Source: a virus. From it: DNA of 43,924 nucleotides. The notes under the pieces are model-generated. The model was given only the letters and a program-made list of their open reading frames with translations. It had not been told where the DNA came from and did no database searches. Location: IMG/VR virus record IMGVR_UViG_3300037296_000150, positions 1-43,924 of that record; one strand, given 5' to 3'. A program made the position numbers and the translations under genes. Of the stretch, positions 30,355-43,924 are shown piece by piece; position 1 is the first letter of the stretch, and each line of letters starts with the position of its first letter.

Positions 30355-30371
30355 CTAAGCGCAATGCTTAG
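30355..30371. promoter_or_regulatory. Operator-like palindrome near attP
   Basis: CTAAGCG-CAA-TGCTTAG has the same 7-3-7 layout as the immunity-region operator CTAAGCA-ATA-TGCTTAG and differs by one base outside the spacer. It lies between the tail gene stop and the terminator, about 8.5-9 kb from the immunity region. It may bind the repressor or Cro, or serve as an arm site near attP. Confidence 0.5.
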
Positions 30372-38999: not shown

Positions 39000-39158
39000 A
39001 TGACGACGCAATTACGCTTAGATGCATTGAAAATGCTGCGCAAAAACACTGGCCTAACGTTGGATTTCTGGGCGGATATGACAGAGGGGCTAGATCAAAG
39101 CTCTCTGGATATCCTTGTGGGCAGATCATCGACCTTACCAAAGAACAAGAACTCGTAA
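39000..39158 (+). CDS. Possible small protein convergent with the repressor, 52 aa
   Basis: A frame (MTTQLRLDALKMLRKNTGLT ...) with GAGG 6 nt before its ATG runs rightward and overlaps the 3' end of the repressor gene by 64 bp on the opposite strand. Its first half could be an HTH-like helical pair. No promoter is clear. It might be a real small regulator or a chance frame. Confidence 0.35.
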   Translation: MTTQLRLDALKMLRKNTGLTLDFWADMTEGLDQSSLDILVGRSSTLPKNKNS

Positions 39159-39397
39159 GGTAAGCTATATGCAGACCTCAGCTTCTTCGCTGCTTGTAGG
39201 GTAAGGGGGCGCCTGGCGTTCTCGAACGGGCCATAGACCTGCTCGGACAGACCAGCCTTCTCCGCGAACTCGCGCTTGGAAAGCCCCAATATCTCGCGCA
39301 CCGCCTGCAATCTGGCGGCGATGGCTTCGGGTGTATCTTCTTGATCCTGCATCATGATCACAGCATATGCAGGTGTTTCGGTCGTGACGATCAGCAT
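39095..39397 (-). CDS. XRE-family repressor (CI-like), short
   Basis: A 100 aa protein with a clear lambda-repressor-type HTH: AIAARLQAVREILGLSKREF AEKAGLSEQVYGPFENARR, ending at LPYEFLFFG. There is no C-terminal S24 peptidase domain, so RecA-driven self-cleavage as in lambda CI is not expected. It is read leftward between two pairs of operators, as lambda cI is. The first ATG (39397) lies inside the operator and next to the predicted transcription start, so the mRNA could be leaderless; ATGs at 39355/39352 are the alternative and would remove 14-15 residues before the HTH. Confidence 0.8.
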   Translation of the reverse strand: MLIVTTETPAYAVIMMQDQEDTPEAIAARLQAVREILGLSKREFAEKAGLSEQVYGPFENARRPLTLQAAKKLRSAYSLPYEFLFFGKVDDLPTRISREL

Positions 39398-39430
39398 TTT
39401 GCGTATTTACAAACTAAGCAATATGCTTAG
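39390..39430. promoter_or_regulatory. Right operators (two sites)
   Basis: The site at 39414-39430 is a perfect palindrome, CTAAGCA-ATA-TGCTTAG. A second, weaker site at 39390-39406 reads ATCAGCA-TTT-TGCGTAT and covers the start of the repressor gene. Centres are 24 bp apart. The first overlaps the rightward promoter; the second could mediate control of the repressor itself. Confidence 0.75.
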
Positions 39431-39440: not shown

Positions 39441-39737
39441 ATGATGAATGAAAAAAATCCCCCGATCACACTCGATCAGTTTCTTACAAAGGTCGACCGC
39501 CAGCGGTTTCGCAAGGCGATCGGCCGTAGTGAACAGCTTATGACCCGATGCGTCCGCGATGGTCTGATGCCTTCGGGTTGGTTCCTTGATGTGCGCGACT
39601 GGTGCGTCACGAACAAGATCGACGTGCCTGAGCATCTTTTCCGTTGGGCGAAGGGTTCTAAGCGCGTCTTTCATAGTAAACAAAATGTTTACCAAAGTGA
39701 TCAGTTTCAAGAGGGAGGCAGCAATGTTTCCTCTTAA
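39441..39737 (+). CDS. Cro-like DNA-binding protein, first gene of rightward operon
   Basis: A 98 aa protein (or 97 from the next ATG). The part ITLDQFLTKVDRQRFRKAIG then SEQLMTRCVRDGLMPSGWFL resembles a divergent HTH with a following Trp-rich segment (DVRDWCVTNKIDVPEHLFRW), as in Cro-like regulators transcribed away from the repressor. No Shine-Dalgarno precedes the start, and the promoter lies so near that the mRNA may be leaderless. The family is uncertain; position is the best evidence. Confidence 0.65.
   Translation: MMNEKNPPITLDQFLTKVDRQRFRKAIGRSEQLMTRCVRDGLMPSGWFLDVRDWCVTNKIDVPEHLFRWAKGSKRVFHSKQNVYQSDQFQEGGSNVSS
39676..39692. promoter_or_regulatory. Operator-like palindrome inside the Cro-like gene
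   Basis: GTAAACA-AAA-TGTTTAC is a perfect 7-3-7 dyad like the operators, with partly different half-site bases (A for G at position 5, G for C at position 1). It lies near the 3' end of the gene, about 250 bp from the right operator, a distance compatible with looping. Confidence 0.5.
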
Positions 39738-40444: not shown

Positions 40445-40986
40445 TGCTTATCATGGCGTTCGACATTGCAACTTCGACTGGAATTGCCTTTGGCCGCGCC
40501 GGTGAAGTGCCGCGCACGACAACGATCAATCTTGGCCGGATCAATCAGGACGCCAAGAAGTTCGCAAAGGTGGGCAGCATGGTTTCCGTGCTGCTCACAA
40601 AATACAAGCCGGACCTCGTGGTGTTTGAAGCCCCCATTGGCGGGCCAACGACTTCGCATTTTCTTGTCGGCGCAGCTGCGGTGTTTACCGGGCGCGTAGA
40701 GGAAATGGGGTTTCGCTGTGAGAAGATCACAAGCTCGACCGCGCGCAAGCATTTCGTAGGCCGTGCGCTGCAGGTCAAAGACTTTCCGGGCCGCAACGTG
40801 GGTCAGCGCAAGAAGGCTCTCAAGCAGGTCATAATCGACCGCTGCTATCTGCTGGGCTGGAAGGTCCAGACAGACGACGAGGCCGACGCCTGCGCGATCT
40901 GGGATTTCGCCTGCGCCACCTATGGCCGCGCGCAATCAACACCTGCTGGCGGGCTGTTCACTAAAAAAAATTCAACAGGAGCATGA
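40444..40986 (+). CDS. RuvC-like Holliday junction resolvase
   Basis: RuvC-type nucleases cut four-way DNA junctions. The 180 aa protein shows the RNase H-like acid set: Asp7 in MAFDIATSTGIA, Glu62 in DLVVFEAP, and the late pair around Asp145/Asp148 (DDEADACAIWD). The start overlaps the previous stop as TGATG. It lies in the replication operon, so it probably resolves recombination or replication branches before packaging. Confidence 0.87.
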   Translation: MLIMAFDIATSTGIAFGRAGEVPRTTTINLGRINQDAKKFAKVGSMVSVLLTKYKPDLVVFEAPIGGPTTSHFLVGAAAVFTGRVEEMGFRCEKITSSTARKHFVGRALQVKDFPGRNVGQRKKALKQVIIDRCYLLGWKVQTDDEADACAIWDFACATYGRAQSTPAGGLFTKKNSTGA

Positions 40987-40987
40987 A

Positions 40988-41512
40988 ATGAACGACCAAA
41001 CCGTTCGTGGCGTCGTCTACGTGATGACAAATGAAAGTATGCCGGGTCTCGTAAAGATCGGCATGACAACGCGCGGCTCTATCCGTCGCGCAGAGGAGCT
41101 TTATCAGACTGGCGTGCCTACGCCTTTCAAGGTGGCGGCAGAGTTCCGCAGCGTGAATTGCCGCGAGCTGGAGGCAATGGTGCATGAGGCGCTGATTGAG
41201 CATCGCGTTTCAAACTCTCGTGAATTTTTTAGGATCAGCTTGGAGGACGCTTGCGAGTGCATTTTCCACTTTGAGGATCATCAGTTTTACACATGGCTGG
41301 AGTTTATGCGGCCGGGCCATACGATCACGCCAGACGATCATCTGTTTGACCCAGGTGACTTGGCTCGCATCTCTCATTTCTGCGGTGTGGATGAGCTTAC
41401 ATGCATGAGGGCGATGCACGAGTTGATGCCCGAAGATTTGGAGCCCGCCATAGAGCGGCTGCGGCAAAGGGTGGGAAACCCTGACCTTGGCAAGATTGCG
41501 CAGGTTCACTGA
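40988..41512 (+). CDS. T5orf172/GIY-YIG-like protein
   Basis: The start ATG 40988 follows a CAGGAG element. GVVYVMTNESMPGLVKIGMT and RAEELYQTGVPTPFKV, with a later EAMVHEAL and SREFFRI, match the T5orf172 domain, a relative of GIY-YIG nucleases. The last 60 residues are helical and unassigned. Members are found in phages as possible nucleases or DNA-binding proteins. It ends in a 1-bp overlap with the initiator gene, so it may be a settled homing-type gene. Confidence 0.8.
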   Translation: MNDQTVRGVVYVMTNESMPGLVKIGMTTRGSIRRAEELYQTGVPTPFKVAAEFRSVNCRELEAMVHEALIEHRVSNSREFFRISLEDACECIFHFEDHQFYTWLEFMRPGHTITPDDHLFDPGDLARISHFCGVDELTCMRAMHELMPEDLEPAIERLRQRVGNPDLGKIAQVH

Positions 41513-42279
41513 TGAGCAATATCATTCAGGGCATAGCGCAGAAGAAAATGACCGGGACGGCGGTAAAGAAGGCCGTTCTGATGTATATGGCGAATTGCGC
41601 CAGTGACGACGGAACAGGCATTTGGACAAGCAAGACGAATATGGCGTCCGATTTGGAGGTTTCGCGCCGGGCTGTTCAATTGGCGATTACGGCATTTATA
41701 GACGCTGGAGTTGTAGCCGAGGTCGGAAAGCGGAAATGCAAGAACGGTTTCACAGTCGAATATCAGATCAATATTCCGCTTCTTGATGCCATGCCATCCA
41801 CACGTGAACCCCATTCACATGTGAACCCCGTTCACGTGACATGCGAACCCCATTCGCATCAAGACGTGAACCCCATTCGCACAAACCTTCCTTTAACCAC
41901 CCCTGAACCATCCATAGAAGAAAATACCAAAGATGGATTGTTCACTGATGATCTGGCCCCTCCCAAGCAAGATCCAAAGCTAGATCGCTTCGACGAGTTC
42001 TGGGCTGCATATCCGAAATGCCAAAACAAGCGGGCACCTAAACGAGCTCGGACAATTTGGGCAAAGATCATGTCCGGTAAATCCAAGGGAATTGAAAAGG
42101 AAAGCCCCGATGTGATCATTGCTGCCGTGAAAAGATATGCGGCCAGCAATTCAGATTTCAAATTTGCTTTTAATCCTGCGCGCTGGCTGGACGAGCGTGA
42201 ATGGACGGAATGGCCCGAACAGGTTGAGCGGCGGCGCGGCGGGCAGTCGATCCCCTACTTCGGGGAGATCACGCGATGA
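41512..42279 (+). CDS. Replication initiator (lambda O-like), with winged-helix N-terminus
   Basis: Residues about 1-85 form a winged helix of the HTH_36/replication-protein type (KKAVLMYMANCASDDGTGIW, ASDLEVSRRAVQLAITAFI). A Pro/His/Thr-rich linker follows (residues about 95-140), encoded by the iterons. The C-terminal domain, FDEFWAAYPKCQNKRAPKRA and NPARWLDEREWTEW, is common in phage initiators that recruit helicase. Helicase lies two genes downstream. The layout, origin inside the initiator gene, repeats that of lambda O. Confidence 0.85.
   Translation: MSNIIQGIAQKKMTGTAVKKAVLMYMANCASDDGTGIWTSKTNMASDLEVSRRAVQLAITAFIDAGVVAEVGKRKCKNGFTVEYQINIPLLDAMPSTREPHSHVNPVHVTCEPHSHQDVNPIRTNLPLTTPEPSIEENTKDGLFTDDLAPPKQDPKLDRFDEFWAAYPKCQNKRAPKRARTIWAKIMSGKSKGIEKESPDVIIAAVKRYAASNSDFKFAFNPARWLDEREWTEWPEQVERRRGGQSIPYFGEITR
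41802..41883. repeat. Four dyad iterons: probable origin of replication
   Basis: Core repeats at 41804-41818 (GTGAACCCCATTCAC), 41821-41835 (GTGAACCCCGTTCAC), 41843-41857 (GCGAACCCCATTCGC) and 41866-41880 (GTGAACCCCATTCGC). Centres are 17, 22 and 23 bp apart. The first three are perfect inverted repeats around a 5-bp centre, and the third keeps symmetry by paired changes in both arms. An AT-richer stretch follows (about 41881-41940). Iterons within the initiator gene next to an AT-rich part are the lambda-type origin pattern. Confidence 0.85.
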
Positions 42280-42548
42280 ATTGCCCCACGACATTTGAGG
42301 ACGCCTACGGGGTGGCGATGCGGGCTCTGTGCAAAAAAGAGGGGCGCAAGCCGCTGTTGCCAGGTTCGATGGATTTTACGAGCGGTTGGAAGCGCGAAAC
42401 GCCCGATCAATTAAGGCTGCGTCGTGAAAGAGTGCTTGCTGCTGTGGCGGTAGGCAAGCCTCAGCGAGTGATCGCGGAAGAGCTTAATATCGAATTTGCC
42501 ACTGTGCGCCGTGACATTCGCGTCCTCAAAAATGAGGGGCGTCTGTGA
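42276..42548 (+). CDS. Small HTH protein, 90 aa (paralogue 1)
   Basis: The C-terminal half RVLAAVAVGKPQRVIAEELN and FATVRRDIRVLKNEGRL forms a HTH of the replication/transcription-regulator type. The first half (FEDAYGVAMRALCKKEGRKP) is nearly parallel to that of the next gene, so the two look like a tandem duplication. It lies between the initiator and helicase, where lambda P would stand. It could be a helicase loader or regulator. Confidence 0.7.
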   Translation: MNCPTTFEDAYGVAMRALCKKEGRKPLLPGSMDFTSGWKRETPDQLRLRRERVLAAVAVGKPQRVIAEELNIEFATVRRDIRVLKNEGRL

Positions 42549-42814
42549 TGGTCAAATCTAAGTCAGAGGACGAATACGGCGCTGCGTTGGGTGCGCTGCG
42601 GCGCAAAGAGGGCTTCACCCCACGCGTCATGCCGGATAGCCGAAAGCCTGCGCCCAGCGGGGCTGATATCGAGCTGCGGCGCGTAAAGGTCATGTTTCGT
42701 TTTCTTCGCGGAATGACGGCGCGGGAAATATCAGAGGACATGGGAATTTCTTACAACGTGGTCTGGCAAGACAAGCTCGCCCTTGAGACGCGGGGGTATC
42801 TGAAATGCAAGTGA
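42548..42814 (+). CDS. Small HTH protein, 88 aa (paralogue 2)
   Basis: The start overlaps the previous stop (TGATG). DEYGAALGALRRKEGFTP, IELRRVKVMFRFLRGMTARE and SEDMGISYNVVWQDKLALET follow the layout of the previous protein position by position, with a HTH at the C-terminus. The stop overlaps the helicase start. Function unknown. Confidence 0.7.
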   Translation: MVKSKSEDEYGAALGALRRKEGFTPRVMPDSRKPAPSGADIELRRVKVMFRFLRGMTAREISEDMGISYNVVWQDKLALETRGYLKCK

Positions 42815-43924
42815 TGAATGCAAACAACGGCGACGGCAAAGTGTTTGACGATTGGCTGTTGGCGGAAACGCAGCTGGTCGGTCGCGCGCTTTTGGATCAG
42901 TCCATCGTGGACCGCGTTGGCGACGTGATCAACGAAACGAGCTTTCAAAACCCCGTCCACAAGCGGATCTGGGCGATCATCGCCAACCGTCACCGCAATG
43001 GGCACCCTGCAAACCTCGTGGCAGTGGCGCAGATTATCGGTGACGATCCGGATTTGGAAAAGCTGGGCGGCAAGGGCTATCTGGTTTCCGCTTCGACGAA
43101 AGCGGTGGGCTACATCGACCCGCGTGAGACTGCGCAGATGATGATAGAGGGGCAATGCCGCTTCCTGCTGCGAGATAGCGCCGAGAAAGCCCTTTCGTCC
43201 ATCAAAACGGGCATGGACAGCCAAGAGGTGTCCGCAGGCCTCCTGACGGGCATTGCATCGCTTCCAGAGACGCGGGGGCGGGAAAGCTCTTTCTCTCTGG
43301 CGCGGTCTGTCACGGATGCTGTGACGCAGACGCATGAAGCGTATCATGGGCGGGCCACATTCCTTAAAACTGGCATTGGCGCGCTGGATGATATTCTGCG
43401 CGGGCTGGCGCCGGGCGATCTGTGTCTGCTGGGCGGCACGACTTCGATGGGAAAGACCGCGACTGCGATTGAGATAGCGGCAAACGTGGCGTTTTCTGAC
43501 GAGCCGGGTGGTGCCGTGTTCTGGTCGCTGGAAATGTGGCACACGGAAATTGCCAACCGGATCATCGCGGCGCGTTCGTCCGTGGCGTATTCGGATCTGC
43601 GCGATGCAAGCAAGCTGGATGAAAAGCAGTTCGGCCAATACGTCAAACACGCGCAGGAAGTTGAGAAGGGCCGCCTGCGGGTGGTGCCTAAGAACGTGCG
43701 AGACATGGCCGCTGGTCACGCTGCAATTAAGCGGGCCGCGCAGGATATGGGGCCGAAGTGTCCGCTGCGTCTGGTGGTCGTGGACTATGCGCAGCTTGTG
43801 CGCGGTGAAGGCAAGTCCCGATACGAGCAAATGACCAACGTGTCGATCGGGCTCAAGTCGCTGGCTGGCGTGCTGGGCGTCCCTGTGATCGCCCTGGTCC
43901 AGCTGGATCGCTCCATCGGTGAAC
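42814..43924 (+). CDS. DnaB-like replicative helicase (partial, runs off the window)
   Basis: The frame stays open to the window end, giving 370 residues. The N-terminal domain (AETQLVGRALLDQSIVDRVG ... ETSFQNPVHKRIW) is the DnaB primase-interaction domain. The RecA-like core has Walker A GGTTSMGKT, SLEMWHTEIANRI (motif H2-like) and Walker B LVVVDYAQL. The TGATG start overlapping the previous gene is chosen; ATG 42805 in the same frame is possible. It would be loaded at the iteron origin. Confidence 0.92.
   Translation, partial: MNANNGDGKVFDDWLLAETQLVGRALLDQSIVDRVGDVINETSFQNPVHKRIWAIIANRHRNGHPANLVAVAQIIGDDPDLEKLGGKGYLVSASTKAVGYIDPRETAQMMIEGQCRFLLRDSAEKALSSIKTGMDSQEVSAGLLTGIASLPETRGRESSFSLARSVTDAVTQTHEAYHGRATFLKTGIGALDDILRGLAPGDLCLLGGTTSMGKTATAIEIAANVAFSDEPGGAVFWSLEMWHTEIANRIIAARSSVAYSDLRDASKLDEKQFGQYVKHAQEVEKGRLRVVPKNVRDMAAGHAAIKRAAQDMGPKCPLRLVVVDYAQLVRGEGKSRYEQMTNVSIGLKSLAGVLGVPVIALVQLDRSIGE

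Follow-up and report, generated by a model that had tools for sequence, protein, structure and literature searches.

Does the cluster of 15-bp repeats inside the replication initiator gene of this phage constitute its origin of replication, and, if so, what has selection preserved in these repeats, the DNA sites, their symmetry or the encoded peptide? The window, i.e. the whole stretch of 43,924 nucleotides analyzed here, is IMGVR_UViG_3300037296_000150, a virus record by IMG/VR classification. Positions 3160-32093 encode a T7-like connector, an internal virion protein and tail genes, plus an integrase, RecT and exonuclease VIII; a repressor is also encoded in the window, alongside the podovirus-like structural genes, integrase and RecT. 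The sequence-only reading had taken the phage for an alphaproteobacterial podovirus. The podovirus-like gene content is supported, the gene complement being that of a temperate phage with podovirus-type structural genes, and an alphaproteobacterial host is likely because the nearest named relatives belong to Paracoccaceae. A search with the window DnaB as query against viral contigs found no relative, a whole-DNA search of the window against phages gave no match, and the L239 contig had no nucleotide similarity to the window. The genes pertinent to the question are as follows.

39095-39397, minus strand: repressor gene.
41512..42279, plus strand: replication initiator gene, 255 aa (phrog_270, phrog_391, HTH_36, AlphaFold2 model).
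42276..42548, plus strand: small HTH-like gene in the interval between the initiator gene and dnaB (weak HTH matches).
42545..42814, plus strand: second small HTH-like gene in this interval (weak HTH matches; phrog_645, 3.5e-5).
42805..43924, plus strand: phage DnaB-type replicative helicase gene, incomplete at the contig end (DnaB_C, 5.9e-36; phrog_19, 1.3e-52).

Immediately 5' of the initiator gene, at 40922-41512, there is a gene with a T5orf172/MUG113 (GIY-YIG-like) domain. Perfect dyads TAAGCN5GCTTA and TAAACN5GTTTA occur at 39415-39429, 39677-39691 and 30356-30370, near the repressor gene and beside the integrase end, and are likely repressor operators.

When compared with PHROG, the initiator matched the replication initiation protein family phrog_270 (7.4e-25) and the O-like family phrog_391 (6.5e-12); in Pfam, HTH_36 (5.4e-6) was the sole family above its cut-off, and there was no match to Phage_rep_O (PF04492). 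The AlphaFold2 model consists of an N-terminal winged helix (residues 1-96), a disordered linker (~97-154) and a C-terminal helical domain (155-243). The PDB search by sequence gave no match, and the search by fold returned generic winged helices, none with an E-value <0.001. The model places S51 directly ahead of the recognition helix, and the covariation with the iteron half-site (see below) falls on S51-R52-R53-A54.

41662..41706, plus strand: codons of S51 and of recognition helix 52-65 (AlphaFold2 model; helix/half-site comparison).

The claim that four 15-bp repeats, three of them perfect dyads, lie in the initiator linker was confirmed (41804-41880).

41804..41818, codon frame 1: iteron 1, GTGAACCCCATTCAC, GTGAA-CCCCA-TTCAC, perfect dyad.
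41821..41835, codon frame 0: iteron 2, GTGAACCCCGTTCAC, GTGAA-CCCCG-TTCAC, perfect dyad.
41843..41857, codon frame 1: iteron 3, GCGAACCCCATTCGC, GCGAA-CCCCA-TTCGC, perfect dyad, both arm changes synonymous.
41866..41880, codon frame 0: iteron 4, GTGAACCCCATTCGC, GTGAA-CCCCA-TTCGC, one arm mismatch.

The codons of the iterons specify residues 98-123, inside the disordered linker of the model. The perfect dyads of iterons 1-3 share a 5-5-5 architecture, and the start-to-start distances are 17, 22 and 23; the 17-bp first step is below that of lambda, yet is common among the relatives. A mismatch scan of the window showed the four iterons as a tight cluster, with 6 matches to GTGAACCCCATTCAC (<=3 mismatches) vs. 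0.93 expected, a number reached in 0/100 shuffles.

Such arrays are widespread. At least 120 IMG/VR stretches contain two GTGAA-N5-TTCAC sites <=30 bp apart, vs. 19 in all for the permuted-arm control. The ORFs bearing the sites are mostly 250-360 aa long, and 101 array-bearing ORFs fall into 54 clusters at 60% identity (a lower bound), mostly initiators. Among the 55 cluster representatives (window included), 44 matched phrog_270 and 38 matched HTH_36; Phage_rep_O was matched by 7/55 array-bearing proteins. The spacing of the iterons peaks at 21-24 bp, with secondary classes at 17 and ~45, and the 5-bp centre varies from phage to phage, being largely common within one phage. A survey of named genomes with a three-site pattern, one genome per species, detected initiators with sites, in prophage-like loci, in Pseudomonadota, Bacillota, Bacteroidota, Chloroflexota, Cyanobacteriota and Planctomycetota; several of these genomes are metagenome bins, so that the phylum label of the respective loci derives from binning. 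The arrays in Treponema bins (L186, L192, L193 and L224) are non-coding tandem repeats, not initiators, and were set aside; their units are 23-bp long, each containing GTGAAN5TTCAC. In the open-licence literature, nothing on point was found on GTGAA/TTCAC origin iterons. The C-terminal homologues of the window initiator were tried as a source of iteron relatives and rejected, the sites being absent because their N-terminal HTH differs. A leave-one-out HTH profile scored >=20 bits for 51/55 GTGAA initiators vs. 1/38 site-less C-terminal homologues; thus, the iteron type follows the N-terminal domain.

Relatives were then identified by protein similarity alone, using as the query an alignment of the window initiator and eight relatives (80 loci listed, 36 distinct). 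In most of these 36, the array spacing is nearly constant (17-22-23, 17-23-23 or 18-24-23), and several, e.g. L253 and L256, have a badly degenerate first site. The half-site is GTGAA, GTGCA, CTGAA, CTGCA or a mixture, depending on the phage, and is usually uniform across most or all copies. In the residue numbering of the window protein, S/T51 combined with A54 is accompanied by xTGAA in 22/22 relatives, and G or A at position 51 by xTGCA in 7/7, four of which are one clade; relatives with S51 and S/T54 have xTGCA (4), mixed sites (3), xTGAA (2) or another site (1). The exceptions to the helix rule are SKRSVQK (L298) and SKRTVQL (L312), which retain xTGAA, one SKRTVQN and two SKRSVQN phages with mixed sites, and L243, with a different half-site. 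In L300, GVRAVQY replaces SRRAVQ and all eight half-sites are xTGCA, in a phage nested within a clade of GTGAA phages (99/98); compared with L299, its N-terminus is similar, the recognition helix is different and the half-sites are switched array-wide. On a tree built without the recognition helix, the label had to change 10 times. Of 395 Paracoccaceae genomes drawn independently, 67 had a relative, and one of these out-of-sample relatives, L320 (GKRTV), carries GTGCA in all eight half-sites, matching the prediction of the G51 rule. The same genomes contain a frequent group of diverged initiators (L323-L346; about 38-40% identity) with the helix GETTV, whose G[TG]CCA-N3-TGG[AC]C sites are spaced 16, 23 and 23.

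This concerted change of half-site and recognition helix in the relatives supports the claim that the repeats are origin iterons within the initiator gene. The two would be inherited and change together because initiator and origin share the same DNA. We consider it possible, at just short of even odds, that the O-like initiators of approximately six phyla follow one half-site scheme (G/C-T-G-A/C-A) set by the 2-3 residues that open the recognition helix, with concerted half-site switches limited by the reading frame. Under this scheme, S/T51 with A54 would read A at base 4, and G/A51 would read C; if this is true, origin specificity, and hence phage compatibility, would be predictable from sequence.

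The coding frame constrains the sites in a way that is itself informative. The sites are distributed over two or three reading frames (two in the window, three in L240 and L237), and in frame 2, GTGAA would contain an in-frame TGA stop. When only sites whose right half-site is intact are counted, xTGAA makes up the left half-site in 0/17 cases in frame 2 vs. 55/68 in frames 0 and 1; in the conflict frame, the left arms are instead CTGCA, GCGAA, CGGAA and similar, with the right arm intact in 17/17. The absence of TGA in frame 2 is forced, and the informative part is that the rest of the site is maintained. In L240 (same contig as L075), the closest full-length relative, the third site has the left arm GCGAA and lies in the conflict frame. 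The third site of the window is one base nearer than that of L240 and is outside the conflict frame, yet its left arm is also GCGAA; the C in the left arm of iteron 3 may be a relic of a stop-codon constraint like that in L240.

Iteron 3 had been read from the sequence as a sign of selection for DNA symmetry, both arms having changed together so that the dyad was kept at the cost of changed codons. Both arms are indeed changed and the dyad is kept, but the cost is not there: the changes, xGT -> xGC and TCA -> TCG (Ser), are at third positions and synonymous, and the only amino-acid difference at iteron 3, R to C, is caused by a base that is not part of the dyad. Nor does the double change signify symmetry selection, given that, with three variant arms of eight placed at random, a repeat with both arms variant is expected in 24/56 (43%) of the cases, and that L240 shares the left-arm C alone. 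Co-variation of arms, suggested as a check in related phages, was not borne out either: across 94 arrays, the imperfect sites comprise 87 one-arm changes vs. 1 mirrored change, so that compensatory changes of the two arms are not in excess within arrays. A compensatory substitution in iteron 3 under selection for a perfect dyad, although compatible with the origin reading and favored by the perfect 19-bp dyad in which iteron 3 lies (ATGCGAACCCCATTCGCAT, the longest of the four), is therefore unlikely: besides the synonymy of both arm changes and the rarity of mirrored ones (1/88), iteron 4, L240 and L298 have C at arm position 2 in one arm only, and the left-arm C of L240 prevents a stop codon in the reading frame. 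In L237 and L238, asymmetric GTGCA/TTCAC sites are present in 4/4 copies. At gene positions 316 and 355 of L238 and L245, the two phages carry the same asymmetric 15-mer in opposite orientations between near flanks that are identical, and it looks as if it had been inverted between its own arms. From the asymmetric arrays and the L245 inversion it follows that every half-site counts but not the orientation of the site; the iterons apparently do not require a perfect dyad, nor is symmetry strictly needed. Better evidence of selection at the DNA level comes from the multiple frames, the conflict with the stop codon and the way in which sites and initiator change together from phage to phage.

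The same evidence bears on the possibility that the repeats are a low-complexity repeat of the linker peptide, with the DNA dyads as a by-product. The peptide over iterons 1 and 3 is ..EPHS.. and that over iterons 2 and 4 is VNPV/VNPI, so that EPHS and VNPV recur in the linker, and when the linker was synonymously recoded, at least one dyad appeared by chance in about a quarter of the trials. However, >=3 perfect 5-5-5 dyads arose in just 14/20,000 recodings and a 4-member repeat family in 31/20,000. Because the window iterons are read in two codon frames, they are DNA repeats rather than peptide repeats; among the relatives, the half-sites change together in all frames, and the inversion between L238 and L245 alters the peptide. 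For the family, the frames and the inversion refute the peptide explanation, and we regard it as extremely improbable.

The remaining question is what the DNA sites do. The window iterons, at about two-turn spacing in the linker between the N-terminal winged helix and the C-terminal helical domain, are followed by an AT-rich segment that ranks among the top 1.4% of window 60-mers by A+T content.

41881..41940: candidate AT-rich unwinding element, 60% A+T vs. 42.5% window-wide.

In 69/73 array-bearing genes, the A+T content of the segment directly 3' of the array exceeds that of the gene itself (p about 4e-13, with relatives not independent). The sites might instead be mainly an autoregulatory operator, bound by the initiator or a small neighboring HTH protein that blocks or times transcription, with the origin elsewhere. 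Dyads of 15 bp are typical of operators, two small HTH genes directly follow the initiator gene, and embedded iterons may serve both roles. However, the four copies are in the linker and not at a promoter, the AT-rich flank is a feature of nearly all these genes, the annotated origins of lambda and P22 have the same location and nearly identical spacing, and the covariation partner is the initiator's own helix, all of which makes a mainly regulatory role quite improbable. We therefore favor, with a probability of about 0.9, the interpretation of the iteron region of 41512-42279 as the phage replication origin, embedded in the initiator gene.

By analogy with known origins, this origin would function through iteron binding, unwinding and helicase recruitment. 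The winged-helix domain would bind each iteron as a dimer, with one recognition helix per GTGAA-type half-site and the 5-bp centre contributing little to recognition; the array would be wrapped by four dimers, strain from the wrapped array would open the AT-rich flank, and the C-terminal domain of the initiator would recruit the phage-coded DnaB. The coding frame would restrict which iteron arms stay perfect.

With a single phage, it is difficult to study the joint change in specificity of protein and site within one reading frame. The relatives supply a near-minimal pair (L299/L300), an orientation swap (L238/L245) and a stop-codon conflict that breaks one arm, and with these natural variants both the recognition rule and whether symmetry is needed can be tested directly. 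In addition, GTGAA-N5-TTCAC arrays in initiators provide a signature for finding phage and prophage origins across many phyla.

An origin embedded in the initiator gene is the textbook arrangement of phage lambda, and the proposed resemblance to lambda ori holds, with an O-like initiator (PHROG), four dyads at about 22 bp, an AT-rich 3' flank and dnaB downstream. Like the window initiator, that of lambda has an N-terminal winged helix and a separate C-terminal domain. In lambda ori, each of the four iterons has the 5-5-5 dyad core CCCTC-AAAAC-GAGGG, and an AT-rich stretch adjoins them (PMC7466680); as in the window, the iterons are located in the initiator-gene linker; the lambda spacing is 20, 24, 23, with codon frames 0, 2, 2, 1. 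The half-sites differ, as had been noted (GTGAA/TTCAC in the window vs. CCCTC/GAGGG); unlike in lambda, no P-type loader gene was seen downstream, where the window has two small HTH-like genes and then dnaB; and the window initiator is outside Phage_rep_O, its N-terminal domain being only remotely similar (lambda O scores a low 8.4 bits against the GTGAA-initiator HTH profile). P22 likewise has an O-like initiator gene, 18, with an internal annotated rep_origin (spacing 20, 24, 23) and, as gene 12, a DnaB-like helicase gene after the initiator; in the window, the helicase gene is incomplete and comes after the two small genes, whereas P22 has no intervening HTH genes, its half-site is TTTACC/GGTAAA and its initiator is diverged. 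The HTH domain of the SfV orf39 replication protein matches the GTGAA-initiator profile (94 bits), and the gene contains five GTGCA-type sites at a spacing of 24, 21, 21, 24; unlike those of the window, these sites are mostly asymmetric (GTGCA/TTCAC), differently spaced and found in a phage of a gamma-proteobacterial host. SPP1 gene 38 and ORF20 of staphylococcal phage 80alpha are further cases of a known or proposed initiator-internal origin, with initiators described as unrelated to lambda O (PMC5499656). By its sequence, the window array belongs with the embedded origins of the lambda/P22 kind, as a putative member with a different half-site.
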